NCBI GenBank assembly: GCA_946479615.1
Contig: CAMLGR010000135.1
Coordinates: 1 to 13,060 of the forward strand
Direction of reading: 5' to 3'
Length of the DNA stretch: 13,060 bases
Source of the DNA: an uncultured Bacteroidota bacterium
GTDB lineage: Bacteria > Bacteroidota > Bacteroidia > Chitinophagales > Chitinophagaceae
In this document: positions 470 through 11,193 of the stretch, in pieces
How positions within the stretch are numbered: the stretch's first letter is position 1
How the letters are laid out: every line of letters begins with the position of its first letter
Notes under the pieces: generated by a model
Seen by the model: the letters and a program-made list of their open reading frames with translations, nothing else
Told to the model about the DNA's origin: nothing
Databases searched by the model: none
Position numbers and translations under genes: made by a program

Positions 470-922
470 GATTATATATCCTGTTTTTGATTACAAAATT
501 ATTTCTGAGCAGCCGGGAGGAAAAACACCTAAGAATCGTTAGAAGAAAGTGTTGAATCTTATCACCTTGTTGTATGTATACTGTACAATGCTCAAATTGA
601 TGCCGCAAAGGTAATGCTTTTACAGCGATTTTTCAAAGCATAAATACCGTGAATTGTTGTTTTTGCCCTGTGAATGGTAAATTTTCCTAGTTAAATTGTT
701 TCCGGCAACGATTGCGTACACTTCTATGTGCCTATGTGGTAAGACTACGCAATTCTGTAATAGTAATAAGACCAACTGGCGTAGATTCACCACATAGGCA
801 CATAGAAACATAGGAATACATACATAGATGCAATTGAAAACAGGATTTCCGCAATCCGTTCAAACCGCAGCTCAAAATCAGAATGAATAACTTTACTATT
901 GTATCGATAATAACCGACACAC
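470..922. other. Intergenic region, divergent promoters and one inverted repeat
   Basis: No convincing gene lies in this 453-base stretch between the minus-strand small gene and the plus-strand protease, so it must hold both promoters. The DNA is AT-rich. Besides the inverted repeat at 722-807, I see no RNA gene and no clear Bacteroidota -33/-7 promoter pair. The short frames here have no ribosome binding sites and no protein-like composition. Confidence 0.6.
722..807. repeat. Inverted repeat IR1 (CTATGTG-word stem-loop)
   Basis: Left arm 722-740 and right arm 789-807 are perfect 19-base inverted copies. Each arm holds the word CTATGTG twice, 8 bases apart. An inner six-base pair (CTACGC at 745-750 and GCGTAG at 779-784) extends the stem. 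The right side continues with further partial words (CATAGG, CATAG) up to about 828. The arm words and the loop (CTACGC..TTCTGTAATAGTAATA) match the repeat at 2214-2342, so the two are copies of one family. Confidence 0.9.
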
Positions 923-2191
923 ATGAAAAAACTCGTTCTTATCTATTCTTTGTTTGGCTTTCTTGCATTGCCTGCAGCGGCACAGACAAATGACAGCCTG
1001 TACAGATTGTATAAGGCCAAACAATTTCCTGAACTGGAAAGGGACAATACCGATAAAAGCCACGCGCTTTATTTTTTTTATAAAGCCGTCTATGCAAATG
1101 TTTCCAATCAACCGGCTTCTTCCAACCGATACCTGGATACATTTGTACAAAACAGGAAGAAATTACCTGCGGCGATCGGTTTCGCATACTGGAGATTGAG
1201 AAATGACAACGATGTAAAGCTCTTTGATTATAAGAATGCATACGCTACCCAGCAGATCCTTCTAAAGAATTATAAGAAGAAATACAGTAAACGCGATTAT
1301 ACCGCCGAAAAATATACCGGCGAGATCTGGCGCACCCTTTCCAACGAGAAACCACAACGCACCGAACGCAGCGGTTCTTCCCGTCTTCCTCTTACGCGCG
1401 ATTTGGCGGGGTTGATCAATATTCGTGTAAAAGCCGGTGATACCGATACCAGTTTTGTATTCGATACCGGCGCCGGCATGTCATCCATTACCGAAAGTCT
1501 TGCACAAAAAATGAGCCTGCGGATATTGCCAGGCAATGAGATCAAAGTATCAGGCTTCAACAATGTTTTCAACCCGGTACAGATCGCAGTAGCTGATGAA
1601 TTACATATCGGCGATATCATTATCCGCAATGAACCTTTTCTTGTTTTTAAAGACGAAGCATTAAGTTTTGCCGGAGGCGCTTACAAGATCAATGGCATTA
1701 TCGGTTTCCCGATCGCTAAAGAACTCGGCAGCCTGACGATCACTCCCACTGAATTACTGGTCAATGATCTGGCCAAAGAAGATAAAACGCCGGAAAAGAA
1801 TCTTTTTATCGAACTATTACATCCTGTTCTTTTCCTGAAGTATAAGGAAAAGCTCCTGCCTTTTAATTTCGATACGGGAGCCAATACTTCACAATTCTCC
1901 AAAACTTTTTTTGATGCGTATGGCAAAGAACTGGAGGCGGGTAATCAGTATGAAACAAAACAAAATGCCAGCGCCGGTGGTGTGCGGACTTATAAGGCAT
2001 TGATCGCTGATACCCTGGTGGTATGGCTGGGCAGACAACCCATCGGTTTTTCAAAAATCGAGATCGATGCCGAAGATTATCACGTATCGGGTGAAGAATT
2101 GTATGGCAATATCGGCCAGGATTTGCTGAAGCGATATAAAAAAGTGACGATCAATTTTAAAAATAATTACCTGAAGCTGGAAGACCAATAG
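923..2191 (+). CDS. Secreted two-lobed retropepsin-like aspartyl protease
   Basis: Predicted aspartic peptidase exported by Sec. Residues 1-21 are a signal peptide (MKKLVLIYSLFGFLALPAAA, cleaved before Q21 or T22). Residues about 22-150 are a helical N-terminal region of unknown role with several K/Y-rich helices. Two retropepsin-type lobes follow. The first has FVFDTGAG at 178-185 with IIGFPI at 259-264. The second has FNFDTGAN at 314-321 with NIGQDLL at 396-402. Each lobe thus keeps the D-T-G-A catalytic loop and the later hydrophobic-G-x-D/P motif of this family, so one chain could form the active site that retropepsins build by dimerising. Substrates are unknown; periplasmic or surface action is inferred from the signal peptide. 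The gene stands alone, flanked by related inverted repeats. The ATG is followed directly by the signal peptide, which supports this start. A single-chain design with both aspartates (D181, D317) makes activity plausible. Confidence 0.92.
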   Translation: MKKLVLIYSLFGFLALPAAAQTNDSLYRLYKAKQFPELERDNTDKSHALYFFYKAVYANVSNQPASSNRYLDTFVQNRKKLPAAIGFAYWRLRNDNDVKLFDYKNAYATQQILLKNYKKKYSKRDYTAEKYTGEIWRTLSNEKPQRTERSGSSRLPLTRDLAGLINIRVKAGDTDTSFVFDTGAGMSSITESLAQKMSLRILPGNEIKVSGFNNVFNPVQIAVADELHIGDIIIRNEPFLVFKDEALSFAGGAYKINGIIGFPIAKELGSLTITPTELLVNDLAKEDKTPEKNLFIELLHPVLFLKYKEKLLPFNFDTGANTSQFSKTFFDAYGKELEAGNQYETKQNASAGGVRTYKALIADTLVVWLGRQPIGFSKIEIDAEDYHVSGEELYGNIGQDLLKRYKKVTINFKNNYLKLEDQ

Positions 2192-2213
2192 CTTCTTATT
2201 TTCTACAATAAAA

Positions 2214-2342
2214 CCTATGTGAAACCTATATGCCCTATGTGCCTATGTGGTAAAAACTACGCCCTTCTTTTTAGTAATAGTATCAAAACTGTAAGTTTTT
2301 CTTTACCACATAGGCACATAGGGCATATAGGTTTCACATAGG
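2214..2342. repeat. Inverted repeat IR2 with perfect 41-base arms
   Basis: Left arm 2214-2254 and right arm 2302-2342 are perfect reverse complements over 41 bases, with a 47-base loop. Each arm carries four CCTAT[GA]TG words starting 8-11 bases apart (left arm: 2214, 2225, 2234, 2242). The repeat starts 23 bases past the protease stop codon. The loop begins with the same CTACGC..TTCT..TAGTAATA sequence as IR1, in the same orientation. It could act as a very stable 3'-end structure on the protease mRNA. Confidence 0.95.
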
Positions 2343-2376
2343 CCGTATTATTATTCGTGAAATAAATTCCCCATAG

Positions 2377-2589
2377 ATCATTCTAAACTGGCAGGTCTTT
2401 TGTTCCGGTTTCAGAACCATAGAGAAAAGGAGGAGCACAGAGATTGGGAATGACTTTGTAACTCCAAAAATCGAAGAAAAACTTCCACTCGTCGACATAA
2501 TCGGATCATCCGGCGAAATCTTTTTCGGCAACTTCGTTTACTCCGGATATTTGTTCCCAGAAAATAAGATCATTCAAATAACCCGATAA
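2377..2589 (+). pseudogene. Possible gene remnant, open frame without a start
   Basis: A plus-strand frame is open from 2377 to a TAA at about 2587-2589. Its second half reads like real protein: GNDFVTPKIEEKLPLVDIIG, then SSGEIFFGNFVYSGYLFPEN and KIIQITR. There is no ATG in this frame; an AAAGGAGG sequence at 2426-2433 sits 9 bases ahead of an ATT codon (2443). It may be the decayed end of a gene, or chance. I cannot assign a family. Confidence 0.22.
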
Positions 2590-2728
2590 ATTTCCGATCC
2601 GTACACAACGAAGACTAAATCCGAACAGTTACCCCTTTTGAAAGCCATGCCGATTCAATAAGTCAAAATCTTGTTCCCGTTGAAAATCTTCACTCTCGTC
2701 CAAACCGTCCAAACAAAAGATTTTGATC

Positions 2729-2757
2729 GCTGCTCCCCACCGGAGCAGCTTTTTTTT
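2729..2757 (+). terminator. Intrinsic terminator, first of a twin pair
   Basis: GCTGCTCC (2729-2736) and GGAGCAGC (2742-2749) form a perfect 8-base stem around a CCACC loop, followed by eight T residues (2750-2757). This is a strong rho-independent terminator on the plus strand. No plus-strand gene ends just before it, so it ends either protease read-through or an unrecognised small transcript. Confidence 0.82.
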
Positions 2758-2779
2758 AAACGGCTTCATTTCGGCTGGC

Positions 2780-2809
2780 GACGGGTTTTTAATTAGCGTT
2801 AGACCCGTC
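2780..2809 (+). other. Hairpin between the twin terminators
   Basis: GACGGGT (2780-2786) pairs perfectly with ACCCGTC (2803-2809) around a 16-base AT-rich loop. Together with the second terminator this could be a folded short RNA, transcribed on the plus strand and ending at about 2848. Confidence 0.45.
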
Positions 2810-2819
2810 TGGGAAGTGG

Positions 2820-2848
2820 GCTGCTCCTGTAAAGGAGCAGCTTTTTTT
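2820..2848 (+). terminator. Intrinsic terminator, second of a twin pair
   Basis: The same 8-base stem as the first twin (GCTGCTCC 2820-2827, GGAGCAGC 2834-2841) with a different loop (TGTAAA), followed by seven T residues (2842-2848). It lies 91 bases after the first. Identical stems mean the two can also pair with each other. Confidence 0.82.
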
Positions 2849-2940
2849 ATGTCTGAACCAGGATTTGTGGGATTATTGGGATTGTGGGAAAGAGATGTTC
2901 AATAATCAATGTTCAAGGGCCTTCGGCTAATAATTATCTG

Positions 2941-3444
2941 TTATTTGAGGACTTTGCAGGTAACGAGAAGCTGGCCGGTATGGCGCATGGTATGTTCGGC
3001 AGCATGAAATAATAATCCGAGTACAGTAGAAGGAATCTGCCTGCGCCCTACTCCTCTTGAATCAGTCAGCGTGTTGCTATCTGTATTTTTTAATTGTGTA
3101 ATGGCTTTCCCGATGACCTCATCGATATGGTTTAGCAAAGAGCTGGTCTGTATGGTATCGTTTCTTTTTCCTTCCCTCGCCAGGTAATCCAATTGCATTT
3201 GATCGAGTTGTTGTCCACGTGCATACGTAAATAACCGGTCTATAACACCCCCAATATGCTGAAGATGAAAAGCCACGGATGCATTGTTCTTTGGTTGTTC
3301 CCAGATCATCGCTTCGGGGAAATCAGCAATAGCTTCTTTTATTTCTTTTTGCGCCTGTAAGAAGGCATGAGCGACTGATTGCAGCAGTGCAGGAACTTCC
3401 GGCACCGGGCCCTGCAGCCAATATTCAAGGGTTGATGTTTGCAT
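2941..3444 (-). CDS. DinB-fold metal-binding protein
   Basis: A cytoplasmic four-helix-bundle protein of the DinB/YfiT superfamily. With the start at 3444 (MQTSTLEYWLQGPVPEVPAL...) it has 167 residues, normal for the family; a frame extending upstream to 3516 has an atypical G/F/Y/C-rich leader and is probably not translated. The metal-site histidines are visible: HLQHIGGVIDR at 60-70 (H63 the likely ligand) and HAAEHTMRHTGQL at 147-159, where H151 and H155 fit the H-x3-H of the last helix. Known members bind a divalent metal (Zn or Ni), and some are thiol-dependent transferases for bacillithiol or mycothiol; many are uncharacterised. No partner gene is next to it: it is divergent from the membrane-protein pair at 3652 and has no obvious terminator. 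The specific reaction is unknown. Confidence 0.88.
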   Translation of the reverse strand: MQTSTLEYWLQGPVPEVPALLQSVAHAFLQAQKEIKEAIADFPEAMIWEQPKNNASVAFHLQHIGGVIDRLFTYARGQQLDQMQLDYLAREGKRNDTIQTSSLLNHIDEVIGKAITQLKNTDSNTLTDSRGVGRRQIPSTVLGLLFHAAEHTMRHTGQLLVTCKVLK

Positions 3445-3651
3445 AGGCAAAATTACGCGGCAGAAGTATCCGGCAATAAACCAGCTATATCCTTGTCCGT
3501 TAAAAAACGGCGGCATATACCGTGTTTTTCACCTTTTTCAGTCCTGGTCTATCATGTAGCTTCATCAGGCTTCTGCATCAGATCCCAACCCGCTTAATTT
3601 CCCATATAACCTGGCAGCACTGATCCATTCAGCATAAAAGAATCCTGGATT

Positions 3652-4056
3652 ATGTATACTATCAATAAACTCATCGGTTTTTTACAGGGTCTTATTGCGA
3701 AAGAAAGAAAACAGGCTTATACTTCCATTTATGTTGTCATTGGCGGCATAATAGCAGGTACTCTGCTGGGCACTTTGCTTTTTAGCAAGGCTGATTTTAT
3801 GAATATACTGGTTCAATTAAGCGGCCTGGGAATTTCTCTTAGTACGATCGCTGGCGTTTGTTATTACCTGTATAAGTATGACGAAAAAGAAAACAGGAAA
3901 CAGGATTTTCTCGATCACTTACATAATGAAATCAAACAGGGATCTCTTGCTGACAGAAAGATCGATCCGAAAGTCAGTGAACTGATCTTAAAAATGCTCC
4001 AGGATAAAATGGAAGAATCTCCTAACGAACCAATGATTAAAAAAGATGAAAAATAA
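3652..4056 (+). CDS. Small two-helix membrane protein, unknown function
   Basis: A 134-residue protein with two predicted membrane helices at about residues 24-44 (TSIYVVIGGIIAGTLLGTLLF) and 50-72 (MNILVQLSGLGISLSTIAGVCYY). The short N-terminal part is basic, and a charged C-terminal tail of some 60 residues (YDEKENRKQDFLDHLHNEIK...) looks helical or coiled-coil. Both ends are probably cytoplasmic. No catalytic motif is visible and I do not recognise the family. Its stop codon lies inside the next gene (11-base overlap), so the two are translationally coupled and likely work together. No strong ribosome binding site precedes the ATG, as is common in Bacteroidota. The architecture resembles small membrane anchors or holin-like proteins, but nothing in the sequence supports a lytic role. 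Confidence 0.72.
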   Translation: MYTINKLIGFLQGLIAKERKQAYTSIYVVIGGIIAGTLLGTLLFSKADFMNILVQLSGLGISLSTIAGVCYYLYKYDEKENRKQDFLDHLHNEIKQGSLADRKIDPKVSELILKMLQDKMEESPNEPMIKKDEK

Positions 4057-4816
4057 TACTTCCCGGATAATACTGCTGCTTATCGCGTCTATAGCTGTAT
4101 CGTTTATTTTTTACGTACAGGGCGCCAAGCTGGAAGAGAAGGATAAGATCATCAATAAACAAACAAAGGACAGCCTTACAGTTGAATTGAAATACAAAGA
4201 TTCGATGATCCGCTATTTACGTGACAGCATACATTTCCCCGCTTCTAAAATTCAACCTGCTCAAATACAGGTTCATGTACCTCCGCCTATCGCTATCCAT
4301 TCGCCTGCAGCTCCGGCGGTTACGGTAATAATTAAGGATACAATAGTCCCCCCGGCTCAAACAACATCTTCGATAATTACAGGAGACAATGACTTATCCA
4401 TCTACGATACCTCCGGCATGAAAAAGAATAAAGATCAATATAACACGGAATTGAGAGCGCAGCTAAATAATTTATGCCTTACCCAGGCATTCACATTACG
4501 GGATACTATCAAAAATAAAATTCTGCTTACGACCGCTCAAAACATAAGGGCCTCCATGTCCCAATATAAAATATCCCTTGCTAAAGACGTAGAAAGATTC
4601 CGGGTAAACAACAGCATAGGTCCATCAAAGACATTGGCACAAGTGAATTATAAGCCTGTCTTAAGAACGGATGATTACCTGGATGATCTGGTTGACAATC
4701 TTATTTCTGCATTGGAAAATATCAACAATAAAAATGCATTAAGCAATGCCAGGATCGGGCTGCAATACATTTGTCTTTGGAATCAGAAGCAAAATGAATA
4801 TTTCAGGATCTATTAA
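4046..4816 (+). CDS. Single-pass membrane protein with coiled coil and proline linker
   Basis: A 256-residue protein of unknown function. Residues 8-23 (IILLLIASIAVSFIFY) form one N-terminal membrane helix or uncleaved signal anchor. Residues 27-62 are strongly charged with heptad-like spacing (LEEKDKIINKQTKDSLTVEL...), a probable coiled coil. Residues 66-107 are rich in P, A and V (VHVPPPIAIHSPAAPAV), an extended linker. Residues 128-256 form a helical C-terminal domain ending in WNQKQNEYFRIY. With a short positive N-terminus, the bulk should lie in the periplasm. The start overlaps the preceding gene by 11 bases, giving tight coupling. Such anchor, coiled-coil, linker and domain layouts occur in envelope-spanning proteins, but the end domain is not recognised. 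Confidence 0.72.
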   Translation: MKNNTSRIILLLIASIAVSFIFYVQGAKLEEKDKIINKQTKDSLTVELKYKDSMIRYLRDSIHFPASKIQPAQIQVHVPPPIAIHSPAAPAVTVIIKDTIVPPAQTTSSIITGDNDLSIYDTSGMKKNKDQYNTELRAQLNNLCLTQAFTLRDTIKNKILLTTAQNIRASMSQYKISLAKDVERFRVNNSIGPSKTLAQVNYKPVLRTDDYLDDLVDNLISALENINNKNALSNARIGLQYICLWNQKQNEYFRIY

Positions 4817-4847
4817 TTATCAAAATAATTAAAATCTGATGCTAATC

Positions 4848-4869
4848 GCCCATGGTTAAAACCATGGGC
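4848..4869. terminator. Perfect 10-base-stem hairpin after the membrane-protein pair
   Basis: GCCCATGGTT (4848-4857) and AACCATGGGC (4860-4869) are perfect inverted copies with a two-base spacer. It lies 32 bases past the plus-strand stop. There is no T tract on either side, so it is either a weak terminator for the membrane-protein genes or an mRNA-end-protecting stem. Confidence 0.5.
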
Positions 4870-4891
4870 TCATCATCATTCATTATCATAA

Positions 4892-4920
4892 AACAAAAAA
4901 GCCCTCAATAATTGAGGGCT
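4892..4920 (-). terminator. Intrinsic terminator of dnaK
   Basis: AGCCCTCAA (4900-4908) and TTGAGGGCT (4912-4920) form a 9-base stem with a TAA loop. On the minus strand it is followed by TTTTTTGTTT (complement of 4892-4900). It lies about 55 bases past the dnaK stop, so it fits as that gene's terminator, and it separates dnaK from the convergent membrane-protein genes. Confidence 0.85.
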
Positions 4921-4974
4921 TCACTATTTCCTGAAAATCTATTAATCCTTTCAATCCAGGTTCAGACAAGATAA

Positions 4975-6882
4975 TTACTTCACTTCTTCATAAGGAACAT
5001 CCGTCACATTATCACCCTGGGCAGCGCCGGTGTTTTGTTGTCCGCCATCAGCACCTGGCTGTTCTGCTCCCGGTTGTCCCTGTTGTGCATTATAGATATC
5101 CTGGCTCGCGGCTGTCCATGCGGCATTCAATTCAGCAGAAGCTGTATCGATAGCTGCAATATCCTGGGCCTTGTGCGCTTCTTTTAATTTTTCCGCTGCT
5201 GATTCAATCGCCGCTTTTTTATCAGCCGGGATCTTATCGCCGTATTCCTTGATCTGTTTCTCTGTCTGGAACACGAGGCTGTCAGCACTGTTAAGCTTGT
5301 CTACTTTTTCACGCTCGGCTTTATCAGTAGCTTCATTGGCTCTTGCTTCCGCTTTCATCTTTTCCACTTCATCCTTGCTTAAACCGCTACCTGCTTCGAT
5401 ATGGATCTTTTGTTCCTTACCGGTGCCTTTATCTTTCGCTGTTACGTGCAGAATACCATTAGCATCGATATCGAATGTGACTTCGATCTGTGGCACACCG
5501 CGCGGAGCCGGTGGTATACCATCGAGATTGAAAATACCAAGGCTCTTGTTGTCTTTCGACATGGAACGTTCACCCTGTAATACGTGTATCTGTACACCGG
5601 GCTGGTTATCGCTGGCAGTAGAGAATGTTTCTGATTTCTTGGTAGGGATCGTTGTGTTGCTATCGATCAGCCTTGTCATTACACCACCCATAGTTTCAAT
5701 ACCGAGTGACAATGGCGTAACGTCGAGCAGCAATACATCTTTTACTTCACCGGTCAATACAGCACCCTGGATAGCGGCACCAACGGCTACTACTTCATCA
5801 GGATTCACGCTCCGGTTTGGTTTCTTACCAAAGAATTTCTCTACGATCTCCTGTACTTTAGGAATACGAGTAGAACCACCTACGAGAATCACTTCATCGA
5901 TTTGTGAAGAGGAAAGGCCAGCATCTTTCAATGCGGCTTCGCAGGGCTTCAGACAACGACTGAATAAGTTATCCGCCAGTTGCTCGAATTTAGCACGGCT
6001 CAGTTTTTTTACTAAGTGCTTGGGAACTCCGTCAACGGCTGTGATATAAGGAAGATTGATCTCTGTTTCGCTGGAAGAAGACAATTCTACTTTTGCTTTT
6101 TCAGCAGCTTCTTTCAAACGTTGCAGGGCCATAGGGTCCTTGCGCAGATCGATGGCTTCATCTTTTTTGAATTCGTCGGCCAGCCAATCCATGACTACTT
6201 TATCAAAATCATCACCACCAAGGTGCGTATCACCATTAGTGGATTTTACTTCAAATACTCCGTCACCCAGTTCCAGTACAGAAATATCGAATGTACCACC
6301 ACCAAGATCAAATACAGCGATCTTCTGATCGTGTTTGCCTTTATCCAGGCCATAAGCAAGAGCAGCTGCGGTAGGTTCGTTAACGATCCGGCGAACGGTC
6401 AGACCGGCGATTTCACCTGCTTCTTTGGTCGCCTGGCGCTGGGCATCATTAAAATAAGCAGGAACAGTGATCACTGCTTCGGTTACTTCCTGCCCCAGGT
6501 AATCTTCAGCTGTTTTCTTCATTTTCTGAAGAACCATGGCAGAGATTTCCTGTGGCGTATAAGGACGGCCATCTATGTCAATTCGTACGGTATTATTGTC
6601 ACCTTTCATGACCTTATAACTCCAGTGACTGATTTCCTCGGTCACTTCGTTAAACTGGCGACCCATAAAACGCTTCACCGAAGTGATGGTGTTTTGGGGG
6701 TTGGTGATCGCCTGGCGCTTGGCCGGGTCACCTACTTTGCGTTCGCCATTTTTTAAAAAAGCCACTACAGACGGGGTTGTACGACGGCCCTCATCGTTGG
6801 CTATAACCACTGGTTCGCTGCCTTCCATAACTGCTACGCAGCTATTCGTGGTTCCAAGGTCTATTCCTATTATTTTTCCCAT
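4975..6882 (-). CDS. dnaK: Molecular chaperone DnaK (Hsp70)
   Basis: A full-length 635-residue cytosolic Hsp70 that binds exposed hydrophobic peptide segments in an ATP-driven cycle with DnaJ and GrpE. The actin-like ATPase domain covers residues 1 to about 382, with phosphate loop 1 IDLGTTNS at 7-14, loop 2 FDLGGGTFD at 191-199 and the adenosine motif [10 protein letters not shown] at 332-341. The interdomain linker VLLLD is at 383-387. The beta-sandwich substrate domain (about 390-500) contains the [12 protein letters not shown] motif. A helical lid (about 505-600) is followed by a Q/G/A-rich flexible tail. The tail ends D-V-P-Y-E-E-V-K; many bacterial DnaKs end in a similar acidic motif. 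The protein has no N-terminal extension, and the ATG is preceded by AAGGAG 11 bases upstream (6894-6899). The gene is monocistronic here: dnaJ and grpE are not adjacent. Certain assignment. Confidence 0.99.
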
Positions 6883-6932
6883 AATTAAAATTTCTCCTTT
6901 TTTATACTTCCTTCCGGAAGATATAATGCTTT

Positions 6933-6947
6933 GTCAATCATTGTGCC
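6933..6947 (-). promoter_or_regulatory. Candidate promoter of dnaK, sigma-54-like
   Basis: On the minus strand this reads GGCACAATGATTGAC, close to the sigma-54 pattern TGGCAC-N5-TTGC with the GG and the final dinucleotide (here GA instead of GC) ten bases apart. It lies about 51 bases before the dnaK ATG and would give a leader of about 40 bases. The same bases contain TTGACA, a sigma-70-like -35, though with no clear -10 at normal spacing. No CIRCE operator (TTAGCACTC-N9-GAGTGCTAA) is present. An adjacent 10-base palindrome, CTTCCGGAAG (6911-6920), lies in the presumed leader and could be an operator. Confidence 0.3.
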
Positions 6948-7370
6948 GTGAAAGGGAAAAGTGAAAAAATGGCAGTCTGACAGGTGAGAAAGATGTGATT
7001 TGGCACTTACGGGGTTGGGCGGCTGTCTTACAGAGGGCTGAGTAGAACACGGATGGTATGGATGAAAGGATATGAATTGGATAATGATAAAACCCCTGAA
7101 ATCCAATCCATTTAATATCCTTTTATCCACTTCTATCCGTGTTCTATATCATTAGCTGGCGGGCAAAAGGAACCTTCTTTCGACAAAGACCCTTATACCC
7201 GTGTTTTCCTCGTTCAACAAAGGGTTGTTATACCCTGTTCCCCGGTTTTTCAAACATCGACCTTCAACCTTATAGGTTAAGCACGTTACTGGATTTCTTC
7301 TTTTAACGACTATAGAAAAGGCGCTGATAGTAGAGGTATTTTATTTCAACAGAAAATAAATAAATCAGCT
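6948..7370. other. Intergenic region between dnaK and the amidase gene
   Basis: A divergent gap that must hold promoters for dnaK (minus) and for the amidase operon (plus). It contains inverted repeat IR5 (7043-7146). Right of it, 7155-7370 is AT-rich without recognisable genes or RNA structure; no confident promoter pair is seen, and the amidase ATG is preceded by AT-rich DNA without a Shine-Dalgarno. Confidence 0.55.
7043..7146. repeat. Inverted repeat IR5 (GGAT-word stem-loop)
   Basis: Left arm 7043-7082 and right arm 7101-7146 are imperfect inverted copies. They share TAGAACACGGAT at the outer end, with GGAT words at 7051, 7060, 7068 and 7079 in the left arm and matching ATCC words in the right. 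The arms differ by several indels, so the stem is interrupted. The loop is only 18 bases. Confidence 0.85.
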
Positions 7371-8219
7371 ATGCCACAAAGCGTTTTCCGCATCTTCCTT
7401 TTTACAGAGTTTGCGGATTATATCCGCCAGACCGCCTTCCAGCGAAAGATCCGGTTCGTCCAGAACCACCACACCTGGAAGCCCGACTACTCTAATTTCA
7501 ATAAACCTGGCGTGGCCCATATGACCTTACTGGAAAATATGCGGCAAGACCATATCCACTCCCGCGGCTGGAGCGATATCGGCCAGAATATTACCATTTT
7601 CCCCGATGGAAAGATTGGCCTTTGCCGCGCACTCGATATCACCCCCGCCGGCATATATGGCGCCAATACCGGCGGTATCTGCATCGAGAACCTTGGCAAT
7701 TTTGATACCGGCGGCGATGCCATGACGGCCGCGCAAAAAGAAGCCATTGTTAATACCAATGCCATCCTTTGCCTGAAATTCGGATTACAACCCCGCCCTG
7801 CCGAAGTCGTTTACCATCACTGGTATGATACCAAAGGCAACCGCTTCTCCGACGGGGATATCAATTCAGGCAAAGTATTGCTGAATAAACTACAGAAAAC
7901 ATGTCCCGGCACCAATTTCTTTCCTGCTCCCGGCCAGGTTTTTAAAGGCAATACGATCACAGCCGCCATTGCCAATTTCTATCCGTTGATCACTACGGCC
8001 ATGGCGCAATTACAGCAGGCGCCGGTAGCACCCGTTCATACCACTGAAAAAACGGTGACGGCAGATACACTGAATGTACGCGCTGGTCGTGGCATAGAAT
8101 TCAATATCGTGCGTAAGCTCCCGAAGAATATGAAAATACAGGTGTATGAAACAGTCAGCGAATGGTCACGCATCAATCCTGCTGCGGAAGAATGGGTAAG
8201 CGCTAAATATCTTTTATAA
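7371..8219 (+). CDS. N-acetylmuramoyl-L-alanine amidase (PGRP type) with SH3 tail
   Basis: Predicted zinc amidase that cleaves the bond between N-acetylmuramic acid and L-alanine of peptidoglycan. The amidase_2/PGRP domain spans about residues 25-200. Zinc ligands are visible: the HH-T motif at 33-35, YHHWYD with H149/H150, and C178 in KTCPG. GWSDIGQNITIFPDG at 66-80 is the central strand motif; the tyrosine seen at this place in T7-type amidases is Q72, as I recall for a Bacteroidota subgroup, so it need not mean inactivity. A bacterial SH3 domain follows at about 228-282 (TADTLNVRAGRG...EWVSAKYLL), typical for cell-wall binding. There is no signal peptide or membrane segment, so the enzyme is cytosolic, as in phage endolysins or recycling amidases, or leaves by another route. 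The next gene starts 18 bases on, in the same operon. Confidence 0.92.
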   Translation: MPQSVFRIFLFTEFADYIRQTAFQRKIRFVQNHHTWKPDYSNFNKPGVAHMTLLENMRQDHIHSRGWSDIGQNITIFPDGKIGLCRALDITPAGIYGANTGGICIENLGNFDTGGDAMTAAQKEAIVNTNAILCLKFGLQPRPAEVVYHHWYDTKGNRFSDGDINSGKVLLNKLQKTCPGTNFFPAPGQVFKGNTITAAIANFYPLITTAMAQLQQAPVAPVHTTEKTVTADTLNVRAGRGIEFNIVRKLPKNMKIQVYETVSEWSRINPAAEEWVSAKYLL

Positions 8220-8237
8220 TAACTAAAACTGATTGCA

Positions 8238-9431
8238 ATGGATACTATGTCAACCGGTACTTCCAAACCAAGTATCTGGGAATTCAAAAAATACAAAGAG
8301 TACGAATGGTTCCGTTTCCTGGTGATCAAACTGATTACACTGGTAATACTATATATCGTTGTTCATTTGGTCGTCGATTCCAAAAACAGCAAGTTTGGCT
8401 ATGAATATTCCAAACTGGATGCGAAACAAATACAGCAGATCAACCGGATCTATTTTGATTCTGCCGGCACAACAGAACCAACACCGCAACCGGATTCAAA
8501 CGGGGTTCCGGTGCCTGTCAGTGAAAAAACCGAAAAGAAACCCGACCGTTGTATCCGTGCCATCAGCTATATCAGTAACGAATACAATCATAAGATCGAG
8601 AAAACACAACTCGATTCAATCAGGAATTATATCTGTTCATCTTCATCTTCTTTTGAAGTCACAAATTTTCTTTCTGATGTACGATTACAGGTACGATCTT
8701 ATTTCTGGCTGACGGGTCCGATGGTTTATTTTGAAATCATCTTTTGGTCCATCTTCGGTGTGATCTGTTCCTTACTGTTCAATCTTGGCCTTGTAAGCCG
8801 TGGGAGTGCGACTTCCGGTAATACAAGTACCGAATTTGACAGCGCCGAAATTCCTTCGCAGGTCGCAAAGATATTATACGCTCCTATCTGTACACTGGTG
8901 ATCGTACTGGGATATAATTTTTTCAATGATGAAAATATCGTGGATATCAGTTCGAGCAAAGGTGTTATCGTATTTGCCTTTATCGGCGGTTTTTATAGTT
9001 CCAGGCTGATCGCCTTTCTTGATCGCTTAAAGGAAGTACTGTTACCACATAGTGCTGCATCGGATGTTCCATCCAACAATATAACAGCACCCCCGCCGAT
9101 CAATGAAGTATCGATCGCACTGGAACTGGATGAGGATTTCACACCGGAAGATTTAAAAAATGACATTATTGAGACAGGTCTTGGAGATGCTGCTGTCACC
9201 CTGCAGAATGATAAAGGCGATGCGCCTGTTACTGCTGCACGAAAGGGAGAAGATCAATCGGCTGTTTTTATGGTATCCAATCTCAAACCTGGCAAGTATA
9301 TAGTGAAAGCTGCCTGGTCGAAAGAGATCAATGGTACGCCTGTGAACCTGGAGGCCGTACAGGAAGCTGATATAAATTCCGGTGATATGCCTGTTACTAT
9401 CAAATTAAAGAAGTCCAAAGAAGAAGGCTAA
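8238..9431 (+). CDS. Four-helix membrane protein with cytoplasmic beta-rich tail
   Basis: A 397-residue protein that I do not recognise. Predicted membrane helices are at about residues 28-46, 161-184, 209-227 and 241-259. Between helices 1 and 2 lies a polar region of about 110 residues with a P/T-rich part (TTEPTPQPDSNGVPVPVSE) and two cysteines (C105, C133), probably periplasmic and possibly disulfide-bonded. After helix 4 comes an amphipathic stretch, a P/N linker (275-287) and a C-terminal domain at about 288-391. That domain has a run of predicted beta strands and the sequence VFMVSNLKPGKYIVKAAW, the pattern of prealbumin-like or carboxypeptidase-regulatory beta-sandwiches, which usually bind proteins or sugars. 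It sits 18 bases after the amidase gene, so the two are probably cotranscribed. A role as membrane anchor, channel or sensor is inference. Confidence 0.78.
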   Translation: MDTMSTGTSKPSIWEFKKYKEYEWFRFLVIKLITLVILYIVVHLVVDSKNSKFGYEYSKLDAKQIQQINRIYFDSAGTTEPTPQPDSNGVPVPVSEKTEKKPDRCIRAISYISNEYNHKIEKTQLDSIRNYICSSSSSFEVTNFLSDVRLQVRSYFWLTGPMVYFEIIFWSIFGVICSLLFNLGLVSRGSATSGNTSTEFDSAEIPSQVAKILYAPICTLVIVLGYNFFNDENIVDISSSKGVIVFAFIGGFYSSRLIAFLDRLKEVLLPHSAASDVPSNNITAPPPINEVSIALELDEDFTPEDLKNDIIETGLGDAAVTLQNDKGDAPVTAARKGEDQSAVFMVSNLKPGKYIVKAAWSKEINGTPVNLEAVQEADINSGDMPVTIKLKKSKEEG

Positions 9432-9433
9432 AC

Positions 9434-9586
9434 TCTGTGGCCCTCTGTGTCTCCTCTGTGGCTCTCTGTGTATAATTCCTGTAAGAGAGTTTCAATTCGT
9501 AAGTTAATCCTGTAATGCTTTAACCCGGTACTTTACTCCTTGAGTTATACGCAGAGAGCCACAGAGGAGACACAGAGGGCCACAGA
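9434..9586. repeat. Inverted repeat IR3 (CTCTGTG-word stem-loop)
   Basis: Left arm 9434-9475 and right arm 9545-9586 are 42-base inverted copies with a single mismatch that is still a G:U pair in RNA. The loop is 69 bases. The left side holds CTCTGTG at 9433, 9443, 9454 and 9464, a spacing of 10-11 bases that matches one helical turn. It begins two bases after the stop codon of the membrane-protein gene. Confidence 0.95.
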
Positions 9587-9625
9587 AGGGTAATACAACG
9601 GAACGGGTATTGCAGGAATGTAGCG

Positions 9626-9676
9626 CCTTCGATATCTTCAACATTTATTCTTATCCCAATCATAAACCTTCGATAT
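9626..9676 (+). repeat. 10-base direct repeat before the patatin gene
   Basis: CCTTCGATAT occurs at 9626-9635 and again at 9667-9676, the second overlapping the ATG of the patatin gene. It may be an operator pair or mere chance; ten bases in AT-rich DNA is weak evidence. Confidence 0.3.
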
Positions 9677-10997
9677 GAAATATAAAATCCTCTCGCTCGA
9701 TGGCGGCGGTTCCTGGTCGCTTATACAGGCCCGTGTTCTTTTAGATATTTATGGGGATATCCGCGGGCATGCCTTACTGAAAGAATTTGACATGGTCATT
9801 GCCAATTCAGGTGGCAGTCTCGTACTCGCCTGCCTCTGCAATGACATGACCGTAAGTGAGATCATTTCTGTACTGGGAAATGAAAAAGACCGTAAACAGG
9901 TTTTTTCCCCACTTACCTTCTGGGAAAAACTGCAATGGAAAAATATAGCGAGCCTTTTCACCAAGGTATTAGGCCCGCGCTACCGGATGAAAAGAAAACT
10001 GGAAGGACTGCAAAGAGTACTGACAGAACATGATCACTTAAATAAAGAAGGTAAGATCGATACACCAATCGTAAACACGGCGCTTTATAAATTACCAACG
10101 ATCATCGGCAAGCCTTCCCTTCAAATACTGATCGTGGGCTACGATTATTTCCGGAGAAGAGTGAGTTTTTTCCGCTCCAATACAAAAAGTCTGACCGATA
10201 GTTTCAGCAAGTATTATTCCATCACGCTCGGTCATGCGATCCATTGTTCGAGCAATGCACCCGTGAATTATTTTGATGGCCCGGCCGAGATACAAATTGC
10301 CAGAACCGATGTAAACGATACCCGCACCTCCTGGTACTGGGATGGCGCTGTATCCGGTTTCAACAATCCCGTGCTGGCAGGATTGGTAGAAGCCTATACG
10401 AACAATTATTTATCACAACCGGAATATTGCATTCTCTCTATCGGTACGAGTACCGGCTCACCGGTTGTACTTACCGATGCGGGCACATCCACCGATCCTG
10501 TTGTAAAAAATGAAGCATTAAAGAATGCCGGTAACAAGTTTGCCATTACCGATACCAGTTCCGGTTTTGTACAGGATATAAAAAAGTTATCGACAAGTAT
10601 CCTGGGCGATCCGCCGGATTCAGCCACATTTATCGCTTATTGTTTTCTCGATCCATCATTAACCAATAAGGCCAACCTGGTCAGGATAAATCCCTGCCTG
10701 CAGGTAGAAAAAGATGGCAACGGAATTTATGTACCACCAATGGTATATAGGAATATGACTGATGGTGTGAAGCGGTTCCAGGATCTGCTGGATCTCGATA
10801 TGGATGCCGTGGAAGATAAACAAGTAGCATTGATACAAGAGCTCTGCGATAAATTTATCGTAACAGGTAATGGCGACAGTCTTCCGAATCAACTGATCCG
10901 CGGCAGTTACCCGAAAAATGCACAGGATAAAGAGACAAGATACCTGGGTCATCCTACTTATAAACTGGCCAAAGAACAATGGATAAAGTGCAGGTGA
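9675..10997 (+). CDS. Patatin-like phospholipase
   Basis: Predicted soluble serine lipase or acyl hydrolase of the patatin/cPLA2 fold, using a Ser-Asp dyad. The oxyanion-hole motif is SLDGGGSW at residues 7-14. The nucleophile elbow is VIANSGGSLV at 41-50, so S45 is the likely nucleophile; the usual G-x-S-x-G has alanine in its first place (A-N-S-G-G). The strand CSSNAPVNYFDG at 191-202 matches the A-S-x-A-P-x-Y-F block, and the catalytic aspartate is D223 in WDGAVSGFNNP. The length (440) suits the family; about 200 C-terminal residues have no known motif. No signal peptide or membrane helix: cytoplasmic or peripherally bound, acting on membrane lipids. It resembles patatins used as effectors in antiphage systems such as CBASS, but no nucleotide cyclase gene is in the window. 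It follows inverted repeat IR3 and precedes IR4. Confidence 0.92.
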   Translation: MKYKILSLDGGGSWSLIQARVLLDIYGDIRGHALLKEFDMVIANSGGSLVLACLCNDMTVSEIISVLGNEKDRKQVFSPLTFWEKLQWKNIASLFTKVLGPRYRMKRKLEGLQRVLTEHDHLNKEGKIDTPIVNTALYKLPTIIGKPSLQILIVGYDYFRRRVSFFRSNTKSLTDSFSKYYSITLGHAIHCSSNAPVNYFDGPAEIQIARTDVNDTRTSWYWDGAVSGFNNPVLAGLVEAYTNNYLSQPEYCILSIGTSTGSPVVLTDAGTSTDPVVKNEALKNAGNKFAITDTSSGFVQDIKKLSTSILGDPPDSATFIAYCFLDPSLTNKANLVRINPCLQVEKDGNGIYVPPMVYRNMTDGVKRFQDLLDLDMDAVEDKQVALIQELCDKFIVTGNGDSLPNQLIRGSYPKNAQDKETRYLGHPTYKLAKEQWIKCR

Positions 10998-11011
10998 GAG
11001 CGAACAGAAGC

Positions 11012-11193
11012 AAGTGTCAAGTTTTAGGTGTTAGATTTTAGGTGTGGAGGGATTGAAGATTTGGCTATTCACTATGTAATCGTATTTTGGTTTCACGCAG
11101 CGGATGCGGAGAAGCGGCGGCAATATGATTAACCTGATCCTCATCCAACACCTAAAATCTAACACCTGAAACCTAACCTTAACCCTGACACTT
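11012..11193. repeat. Inverted repeat IR4 (TTAGGTG-word stem-loop)
   Basis: Left arm 11012-11047 and right arm 11145-11193 are inverted copies with AAGTGTCA at the outer ends and a perfect 20-base inner core (AGGTGTTAGATTTTAGGTGT in the left arm). The right arm has about 12 extra bases, an additional partial TTAGG word. The loop of 97 bases contains a GC-rich, G-heavy part (CGCAGCGGATGCGGAGAAGC, about 11095-11114). It begins 15 bases after the patatin stop. Confidence 0.88.

Follow-up and report, generated by a model that had tools for sequence, protein, structure and literature searches.

Word-built inverted repeats between genes of a Chitinophagaceae bacterium: probable gene-less miniatures of small single-gene elements carrying GxxExxY or S23/IVP genes

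The 13,060-nucleotide stretch of contig CAMLGR010000135.1 from an uncultured Bacteroidota bacterium (Chitinophagaceae; GenBank assembly GCA_946479615.1), hereafter called the window, contains five inverted repeats (IR1 to IR5) whose arms are made of a short repeated word. With a probability of roughly two in three, the analyses indicate that these repeats derive from small selfish elements, each with a single gene between word-built inverted arms, and are gene-less miniatures of them. The gene-bearing form would hold one lone gene inside its arms, encoding either a GxxExxY protein (PD-(D/E)XK nuclease family) or an S23/IVP four-helix bundle; IR1, IR2, IR3 and IR5 would have nuclease-type words (CACATAG, CACAGAG and CACGGAT/GGAT), and IR4 S23-type words (TTAGATT). 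We infer that the encoded protein moves the arms: it would bind the word array and break or move them, gene-less copies would be served in trans, and word and protein would drift together, giving rise to lineage dialects. If this is true, the repeats are the ends and the genes are what the ends carry, which would be a testable explanation for both together. We know of no settled role for GxxExxY or S23/IVP genes, and no explanation of word-built repeats was found in the open-access literature, subscription literature being outside the scope of the search.

Word-built arms were found to be associated with both gene families. The gene test was prompted by a hunch that GxxExxY and S23/IVP genes may adjoin such words. 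When significant surrounding inverted repeats were sought irrespective of the word (none of 100 shuffles as good), they bracketed 38 of 54 GxxExxY genes, 18 of 27 S23/IVP genes and 11 of 28 genes for RAYT, the REP (repetitive extragenic palindromic)-associated tyrosine transposase, as compared to 1 of 72 random open reading frames (ORFs) of 105-170 aa taken from stretches of genomes G004 and G006. With a score of at least 14, the respective numbers were 34, 17, 11 and 0, and the RAYT brackets consisted of that gene's own simple palindromes. In a search for the 7-nt word CRCNNAG, 26 of 65 GxxExxY matches (22 of the 56 full-length ones) had normally oriented arms on both sides at a distance of up to 260 nt, while no such bracket was observed at 30 S23/IVP or 29 RAYT loci. 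These arms, oriented as in most miniatures, often lay 20-60 nt from the domain match, and their density in the first 30 GxxExxY loci (L426 and L440 being pieces of one gene) was 3.59 per kb near the gene vs 0.12 per kb farther away. Four loci had the 5' arm only, four the 3' arm only, and a reverse-direction arm was seen in three.

The words around the two families differed. Thirty of the 34 unbracketed full-length GxxExxY genes were tested for other arms, and 21 showed a significant surrounding inverted repeat (equalled by no more than 1 of 100 shuffles), built of CRC-type variants in four cases and of other words in 17, such as CRCAGAT, CACCGAT, CACGAAT and GGATT, the last resembling IR5. 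S23/IVP genes had no CRCNNAG arm within 260 nt, and only eight doublets farther off in 98 kb; those that were bracketed had AG-type words such as TTAGATTTTTAG, in a style close to IR4. In profile searches, PF13366 (GxxExxY) was present in 16 of 18 arm-rich genomes vs 3 of 14 well-known controls, and PF05635 (S23/IVP) in 15 of 18 vs none of the 14. In the reverse test, tblastn with one GxxExxY protein revealed the gene in 10 of 309 loci, most of which had been chosen through words; an arm lay within about 90 nt in each of the ten, on both sides in five and in the opposite direction in L175.

Brackets were also found on named plasmids: searched with slightly different settings, 3 of 8 GxxExxY and 8 of 12 S23/IVP genes were bracketed; in Bacteroides finegoldii, a GxxExxY gene between radA and another gene had CACAGAG arms on both sides, and two Nostoc S23 genes were accompanied by GGGAACA or TAGGGAG arrays. 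Several lone genes occupied gaps in unrelated operons, namely fabD/fabG (where only the 5' arm was visible), cas6/cas4 and ribonucleotide reductase. Three cyanobacterial plasmid loci (L520, L522 and L527) had S23/IVP genes inside CRISPR-cas operons, twice between cas6 and cas4 and once between cas10 and cmr3, with inverted word arms in all three. On a Gemmatirosa plasmid (L513, 508-1169), a GxxExxY gene lay between two complete 75-bp miniature word repeats in a composite-like arrangement, and on a Fusobacteriota plasmid another was flanked by direct repeats of 22 nt (CAGATTTAATCCGTGTACCTAT; L518, about 640-670 and 1100-1123), which may be a target duplication.

The family identity of the bracketed nuclease-type genes was confirmed for 6 of 6 proteins, which matched both TIGR04256 and PF13366 (119-159 bits vs a TIGR04256 cut-off of 35). 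The alignment of 17 proteins showed conservation of H, D, ExK (at least 90% for K) and QxxxY, an arrangement that we take to be the RecB/Cas4-type signature; the conserved residues fit an active nuclease. Comparison of the alignment with solved structures gave a single match, to a ribosomal protein (E 0.28), and no GxxExxY match was found in phages. S23/IVP proteins are presumably related to Avd.

Within the window, all five repeats were intergenic and contained no ORF (Table 1). Ungapped inverted-repeat scores were 20 for IR1, 41 for IR2, 15 for IR5, 39 for IR3 and 22 for IR4, and RNA folding z values were, respectively, -7.9, -15.6, -7.9, -12.6 and -6.5; among 200 dinucleotide shuffles of the window the top score was 15, reached once, and IR5 is therefore barely above chance by ungapped score, though strong in the folding test. 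The five repeats proposed in an earlier sequence-only reading of this DNA were thus recovered in the same places, IR5 being the weakest. CRCNNAG occurred as nine doublets in the window, all within IR1-IR3, where the other strand reads CACATAG or CACAGAG, as compared to a mean of 0.18 and a maximum of 2 in 300 window shuffles. By word and grammar, IR1-IR3 are strongly suggested to belong to the class of arm-bearing elements described above; membership appears less supported for IR5 and least for IR4, whose word does not fit CRCNNAG and which resembles, by eye, the AG-type arms of S23/IVP genes. A fixed-shift periodicity score overlooked the word arrays, because the spacers vary.

Table 1. Positions, arms and words of the inverted repeats of the window (rc, reverse complement).
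Repeat	Position	Arms	Words and layout
IR1	722-807	722-750 and 779-807	CTATGTG (rc CACATAG); GTGGTAA towards the loop; inside-out
IR2	2214-2342	2214-2254 and 2302-2342, 41 nt, perfect	CTATGTG, four words per arm; GTGGTAAA towards the loop
IR5	7059-7129 ungapped; 7043-7146 including bulges		Bulged stem; ACACGGAT and GGAT words
IR3	9434-9586	9434-9475 and 9545-9586, 42 nt, one mismatch	CTCTGTG every 10-11 nt
IR4	11016-11177	11016-11045 and 11148-11177	TTTTAGGTG / TTAGATT

It had further been claimed that the word differs between most of the elements and that three of them lie within about 25 bases of a stop codon. CTCTGTG, TTAGGTG and GGAT are indeed distinct, but IR1 and IR2 have CTATGTG in common, and as their loops also look related by eye (ACTACGC..TTCT..TAATAGTA), the two are probably copies of one another. 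IR3, IR2 and IR4 do follow a stop codon at 2, 22 and 18 nt, respectively (the last behind the ORF ending at 10997); as a rule, the position applies to three of the five only: IR5 lies between the divergent genes dnaK (minus strand) and a plus-strand ORF at 7371, and IR1 is also between divergent genes if the 63-aa minus-strand ORF at 278-469 is a real gene. No relatives of the IR1/IR2 loop were found among the 32 pattern matches, all with two mismatches, in 29 of 196 genomes (34 control matches), and the best plasmid match to IR2 had an E value of only 0.4. Rfam yielded no match to the window at its gathering cut-off, the best being MIR9486, a microRNA family, with 60.1 bits against a cut-off of 100, and no ribosomal RNA (rRNA) among matches with E up to 1.

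Word-built arms proved to be widespread. The first pattern, applied to 12 genomes of several phyla, matched in one only, and a wider pattern was used afterwards. Genomes matched by the general pattern TWACCRCNNAGN{1,2}CRCNNAG numbered 95 of the 198 Bacteroidota, 34 of the 80 Acidobacteriota and 54 of the 150 Pseudomonadota, of which 25, 13 and 14, respectively, had at least 10 matches (hand count). In no genome did the reversed-pattern control give more than 4 matches, and the highest count, in a genome of Acidobacteriota, was 176 matches vs 1 control match; because the control shows such matches too, many of those in low-count genomes must be due to chance. A two-word pattern was matched in 49 of 97 relatives of genome G001, with 39 matches and no control match in G004. 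Among 20 loci taken from G004, 11 had inverted pairs, with loops that differed from each other and in some cases held terminator-like hairpins (by eye), and the rest had single or degenerate arms. Of 61 Mucilaginibacter genomes, 15 contained the strict arm pattern, with a maximum of 24 occurrences in a single genome and without any control match. Copies of one element, loop included, were found at about 72-80% identity elsewhere in the same and in other genomes. The 32 arms of 16 elements in G276 fitted one consensus, and about half also had the non-word tail CTTTGCAAAC. The favoured words differed between genomes in a dialect-like manner. A variant layout was seen in L071 (1501-1720, G044), where tandem units of about 75 bp each end in CTCTGTG words and GGTTAAA, so that the arm is inside a longer direct repeat.

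These results agree with the expectation of the sequence-only reading that such repeats are frequent in Bacteroidota, and with its view of one design with many words rather than one transposon, given that same-word copies are dispersed within genomes and words differ between them. Its proposal of a process that makes or spreads the elements was incomplete in that it named no mechanism; as the arms bracket two families of small genes, a class of single-gene elements is the likely process.

Signs of movement were seen among relatives, with inversion, loss of an arm and nesting each as isolated examples. At orthologous gaps in Mucilaginibacter genomes, an element was present, absent, replaced or down to one arm, and one element was inverted (by eye) between two species that are 88.5% alike in the region (L131/L306). 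Other word families were nested inside element loops, and in G256 a 200-bp miniature inverted-repeat transposable element (MITE) with its own 17-bp terminal repeats contained a word repeat in the inside-out layout of the window. The shortening of gene-bearing copies into gene-less ones was seen in G570, where seven loci of roughly 87-94% identity formed a series: the arms were kept, and internal deletions reduced the arm-to-arm length from 442 bp to 322, 215 and 206 bp. Among the long copies, two are broken; a second family contributed two further deleted copies. Judged from these comparisons of sequences, the elements behave like mobile DNA.

The arms have a recognizable grammar of 2-4 words at 8-9 nt spacing, with doublets about 21 nt apart in Mucilaginibacter (by eye). 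In the 32 arms of G276, the constant word letters were about 90% conserved and the two purine positions mostly 50-80%, while the spacer of the outer doublet was 30-50% and that of the inner doublet 60-70% conserved. Across four orthologous element sets, a small sample in which the words were partly chosen by the search, words were 88% (240/273), spacers 53% (16/30) and the remainder 82% (249/302) conserved. The A/G letter was the same in both words of an arm in 91 of 106 arms, whereas 73.1 were expected within genomes (0 of 2,000 shuffles as good); the middle letters agreed in 46 of 106, against 20.5 expected over all genomes and 39.6 within genomes, 36 of 2,000 within-genome shuffles being as good. 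Spacers of opposite arms paired at chance level (28 of 92 positions Watson-Crick, 28.4 expected; 46 elements, mostly of Mucilaginibacter), and the two arms of an element resembled each other no more than arms from different elements did (0.585 within vs 0.617 between elements in G276, and 0.787 vs 0.818 in G004). Since spacers drift and do not pair, and belonging to the same element does not make arms more alike, what is kept in the relatives appears to be the word and not the hairpin. The window is unlike its relatives in this respect, as the arms of IR2 and IR3 match almost perfectly, spacers and variant word included (the single CTATATG of IR2 is mirrored in both arms), which suggests a recent inverted duplication or conversion.

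Other explanations were weighed against this body of evidence. The genes could be passengers, with the arms spread by some unidentified enzyme, whether a transposase, a reverse transcriptase or a replication process, that repeatedly catches small genes. The design common to two unrelated protein families, the G256 MITE of about 200 bp with a word repeat inside its own 17-bp terminal inverted repeats (TIRs), and the Gemmatirosa gene between two complete miniatures would all fit such an account, which is nevertheless unlikely, if a serious candidate: both families are strongly enriched compared to the 72 random ORFs (these two and RAYT being the only ones tested on purpose), many of the genes have an arm only tens of bases away, and no arms were found in 30 loci of RAYT, the obvious candidate enzyme. 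That RAYT, a Y1 transposase, moves the repeats as REPIN-type sequences (inverted pairs of REPs) is hardly credible. The repeats are intergenic, palindromic and patchy, the GTGG at the arm ends resembles a REP foot, and a strong Y1_Tnp match (E < 1e-20) was found in 14 of 15 arm-bearing vs 25 of 46 other Mucilaginibacter genomes (hand count), so that RAYT and arms go together between genomes; yet the 30 RAYT loci (96 kb) contained no word arm, other palindromes being present there. No RAYT was flanked by word arms in the loci tested, and the link was rejected.

We also consider improbable a function at the RNA level, in which hairpins are selected as 3'-end stabilizers, terminators or processing sites, with the stem rather than the word being what counts. 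Very stable stems, the three window repeats behind stop codons, the terminator-like hairpins in some G004 loops (by eye) and the better folding of the sense strand in 8 of the 11 co-directional cases (too few to decide, and with one locus entered two times) point that way. Against it are the chance-level pairing of spacers between arms, the lack of extra likeness between the arms of one element, the position of IR5, and probably of IR1, between divergent genes, and the strict pattern without a match in 46 of 61 Mucilaginibacter genomes. Distinctly improbable is an origin in place, each repeat being built by slippage of words and template switching without mobility. IR2, whose arms are identical down to the variant word and all spacers, does look like a recent local inverted duplication, and words of the same arm agree more than the average of the genome would predict; but dispersed families with loops or tails included, one word family nested in another, elements absent at orthologous sites and the bracketing of two gene families make a local origin hard to hold for the elements of relatives.

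Several observations weigh against the preferred reading of the repeats as miniatures of single-gene elements. The window has neither a GxxExxY nor an S23/IVP gene, so that arm design and words alone provide the link. The layout of IR1-IR3 is inside-out, as counted in 6 pairs vs 54 ordinary ones in 209 loci elsewhere, and is thus not produced by simple internal deletion, while IR4 falls outside the nuclease grammar and was assigned to the S23 type by eye. No significant bracket was detected at 16 of 54 GxxExxY and 9 of 27 S23/IVP genes, nor at 5 of 8 and 4 of 12, respectively, on the plasmids. Inspection by eye, not a systematic test, of one set of 12-nt flanks revealed no target-site duplication. 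As two non-homologous proteins share one design, both may be passengers. For the gene test, 18 genomes were chosen for their richness in arms, which favoured words of the CRCNNAG kind, and the random ORFs were taken from other sets (G004 and G006). All the evidence is from sequence, and no movement was observed.

A broader proposal, which could fall either way, is that an unrecognized class of single-gene mobile elements exists in which two unrelated proteins, a RecB/Cas4-like nuclease and an S23/Avd-like bundle, each adopted inverted lineage-specific word arrays, and whose gene-less offspring are intergenic word hairpins and perhaps some of the long-known heptamer arrays; as part of the same proposal, the class would extend to at least Bacteroidota, Acidobacteriota, Pseudomonadota, Cyanobacteriota and Gemmatimonadota. 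It would raise the question of how a recognition word drifts and yet its copies within one element stay in step.

Known bacterial repeats include the cyanobacterial STRR (short tandemly repeated repetitive) repeats. The intervening sequence (IVS) in the 23S rRNA of Coxiella burnetii has 428 nt, terminal inverted repeats forming a 28-bp stem and an S23p ORF in the loop; it lies, like other IVSs, in 23S rRNA helices and is cut by RNase III, and has been called selfish, with mobility suspected (PMC4990558). An S23p-type ORF in the loop of inverted repeats was likewise found at 18 of 27 S23/IVP loci elsewhere, whereas the window repeats are without an ORF; the elements described here are intergenic and not in a 23S rRNA helix, their arms are repeated words that vary by element, a second unrelated protein family is involved and gene-less forms abound.

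MITEs are short, non-coding, dispersed sequences with terminal inverted arms beside genes (PMC3733652), features that the elements share, with dispersed copies in relatives; within the window, such resemblance is limited to IR1 and IR2. They differ in having word arrays instead of one fixed TIR, in the absence of a visible target duplication (by eye, in the one set of 12-nt flanks), and in that the gene-bearing forms, which come from other genomes and not from the lineage of the window, carry a gene for no known transposase. REP and REPIN sequences are intergenic palindromes in inverted pairs linked to RAYT (PMC6006769, PMC3733652). Inverted pairing, palindromic intergenic sequence and patchiness are common to both, but the arms here are word arrays with no RAYT alongside (30 loci), RAYTs being flanked by other palindromes, and the GTGG that recalls the REP foot GT[AG]G belongs to the last word and lies within the stem. 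TAACTGA heptamer repeats are short intergenic arrays of a 7-nt word in Bacteroidetes, Cyanobacteria and Beggiatoaceae, for which horizontal transfer was suspected and no mechanism given in the available part of the source (PMC4679880). They resemble the arms in word length and in forming short intergenic arrays; they are direct repeats of one word, mostly upstream of start codons, and bracketing of genes is not mentioned in that part of the paper (PMC4679880), whereas the arms of the window are inverted, have other words and are downstream of stop codons in three of five cases.

Some further features were recorded. Palindromes of the GTAGAGACGCG type occupied Mucilaginibacter gaps in L187, L188, L191 and L128; they are REP-like and separate from the word repeats. 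A publication about the capsule loci of Bacteroides contains CTCTGTG four times. The patatin-like protein encoded in the window showed at most 72% identity among the best 120 matches listed and 65% to the nearest genome locus, in a metagenome-assembled genome of Chitinophagaceae. A convergent gap of the window contained two terminator-like hairpins (2729-2749 and 2818-2843), about 90 nt apart and with GCTGCTCC in common, and the stretch at 2886-2945 consisted of repeated TTCAAT words (ATGTTCAATAATCAATGTTCAAGG), which may be a lone leftover arm of another word family.

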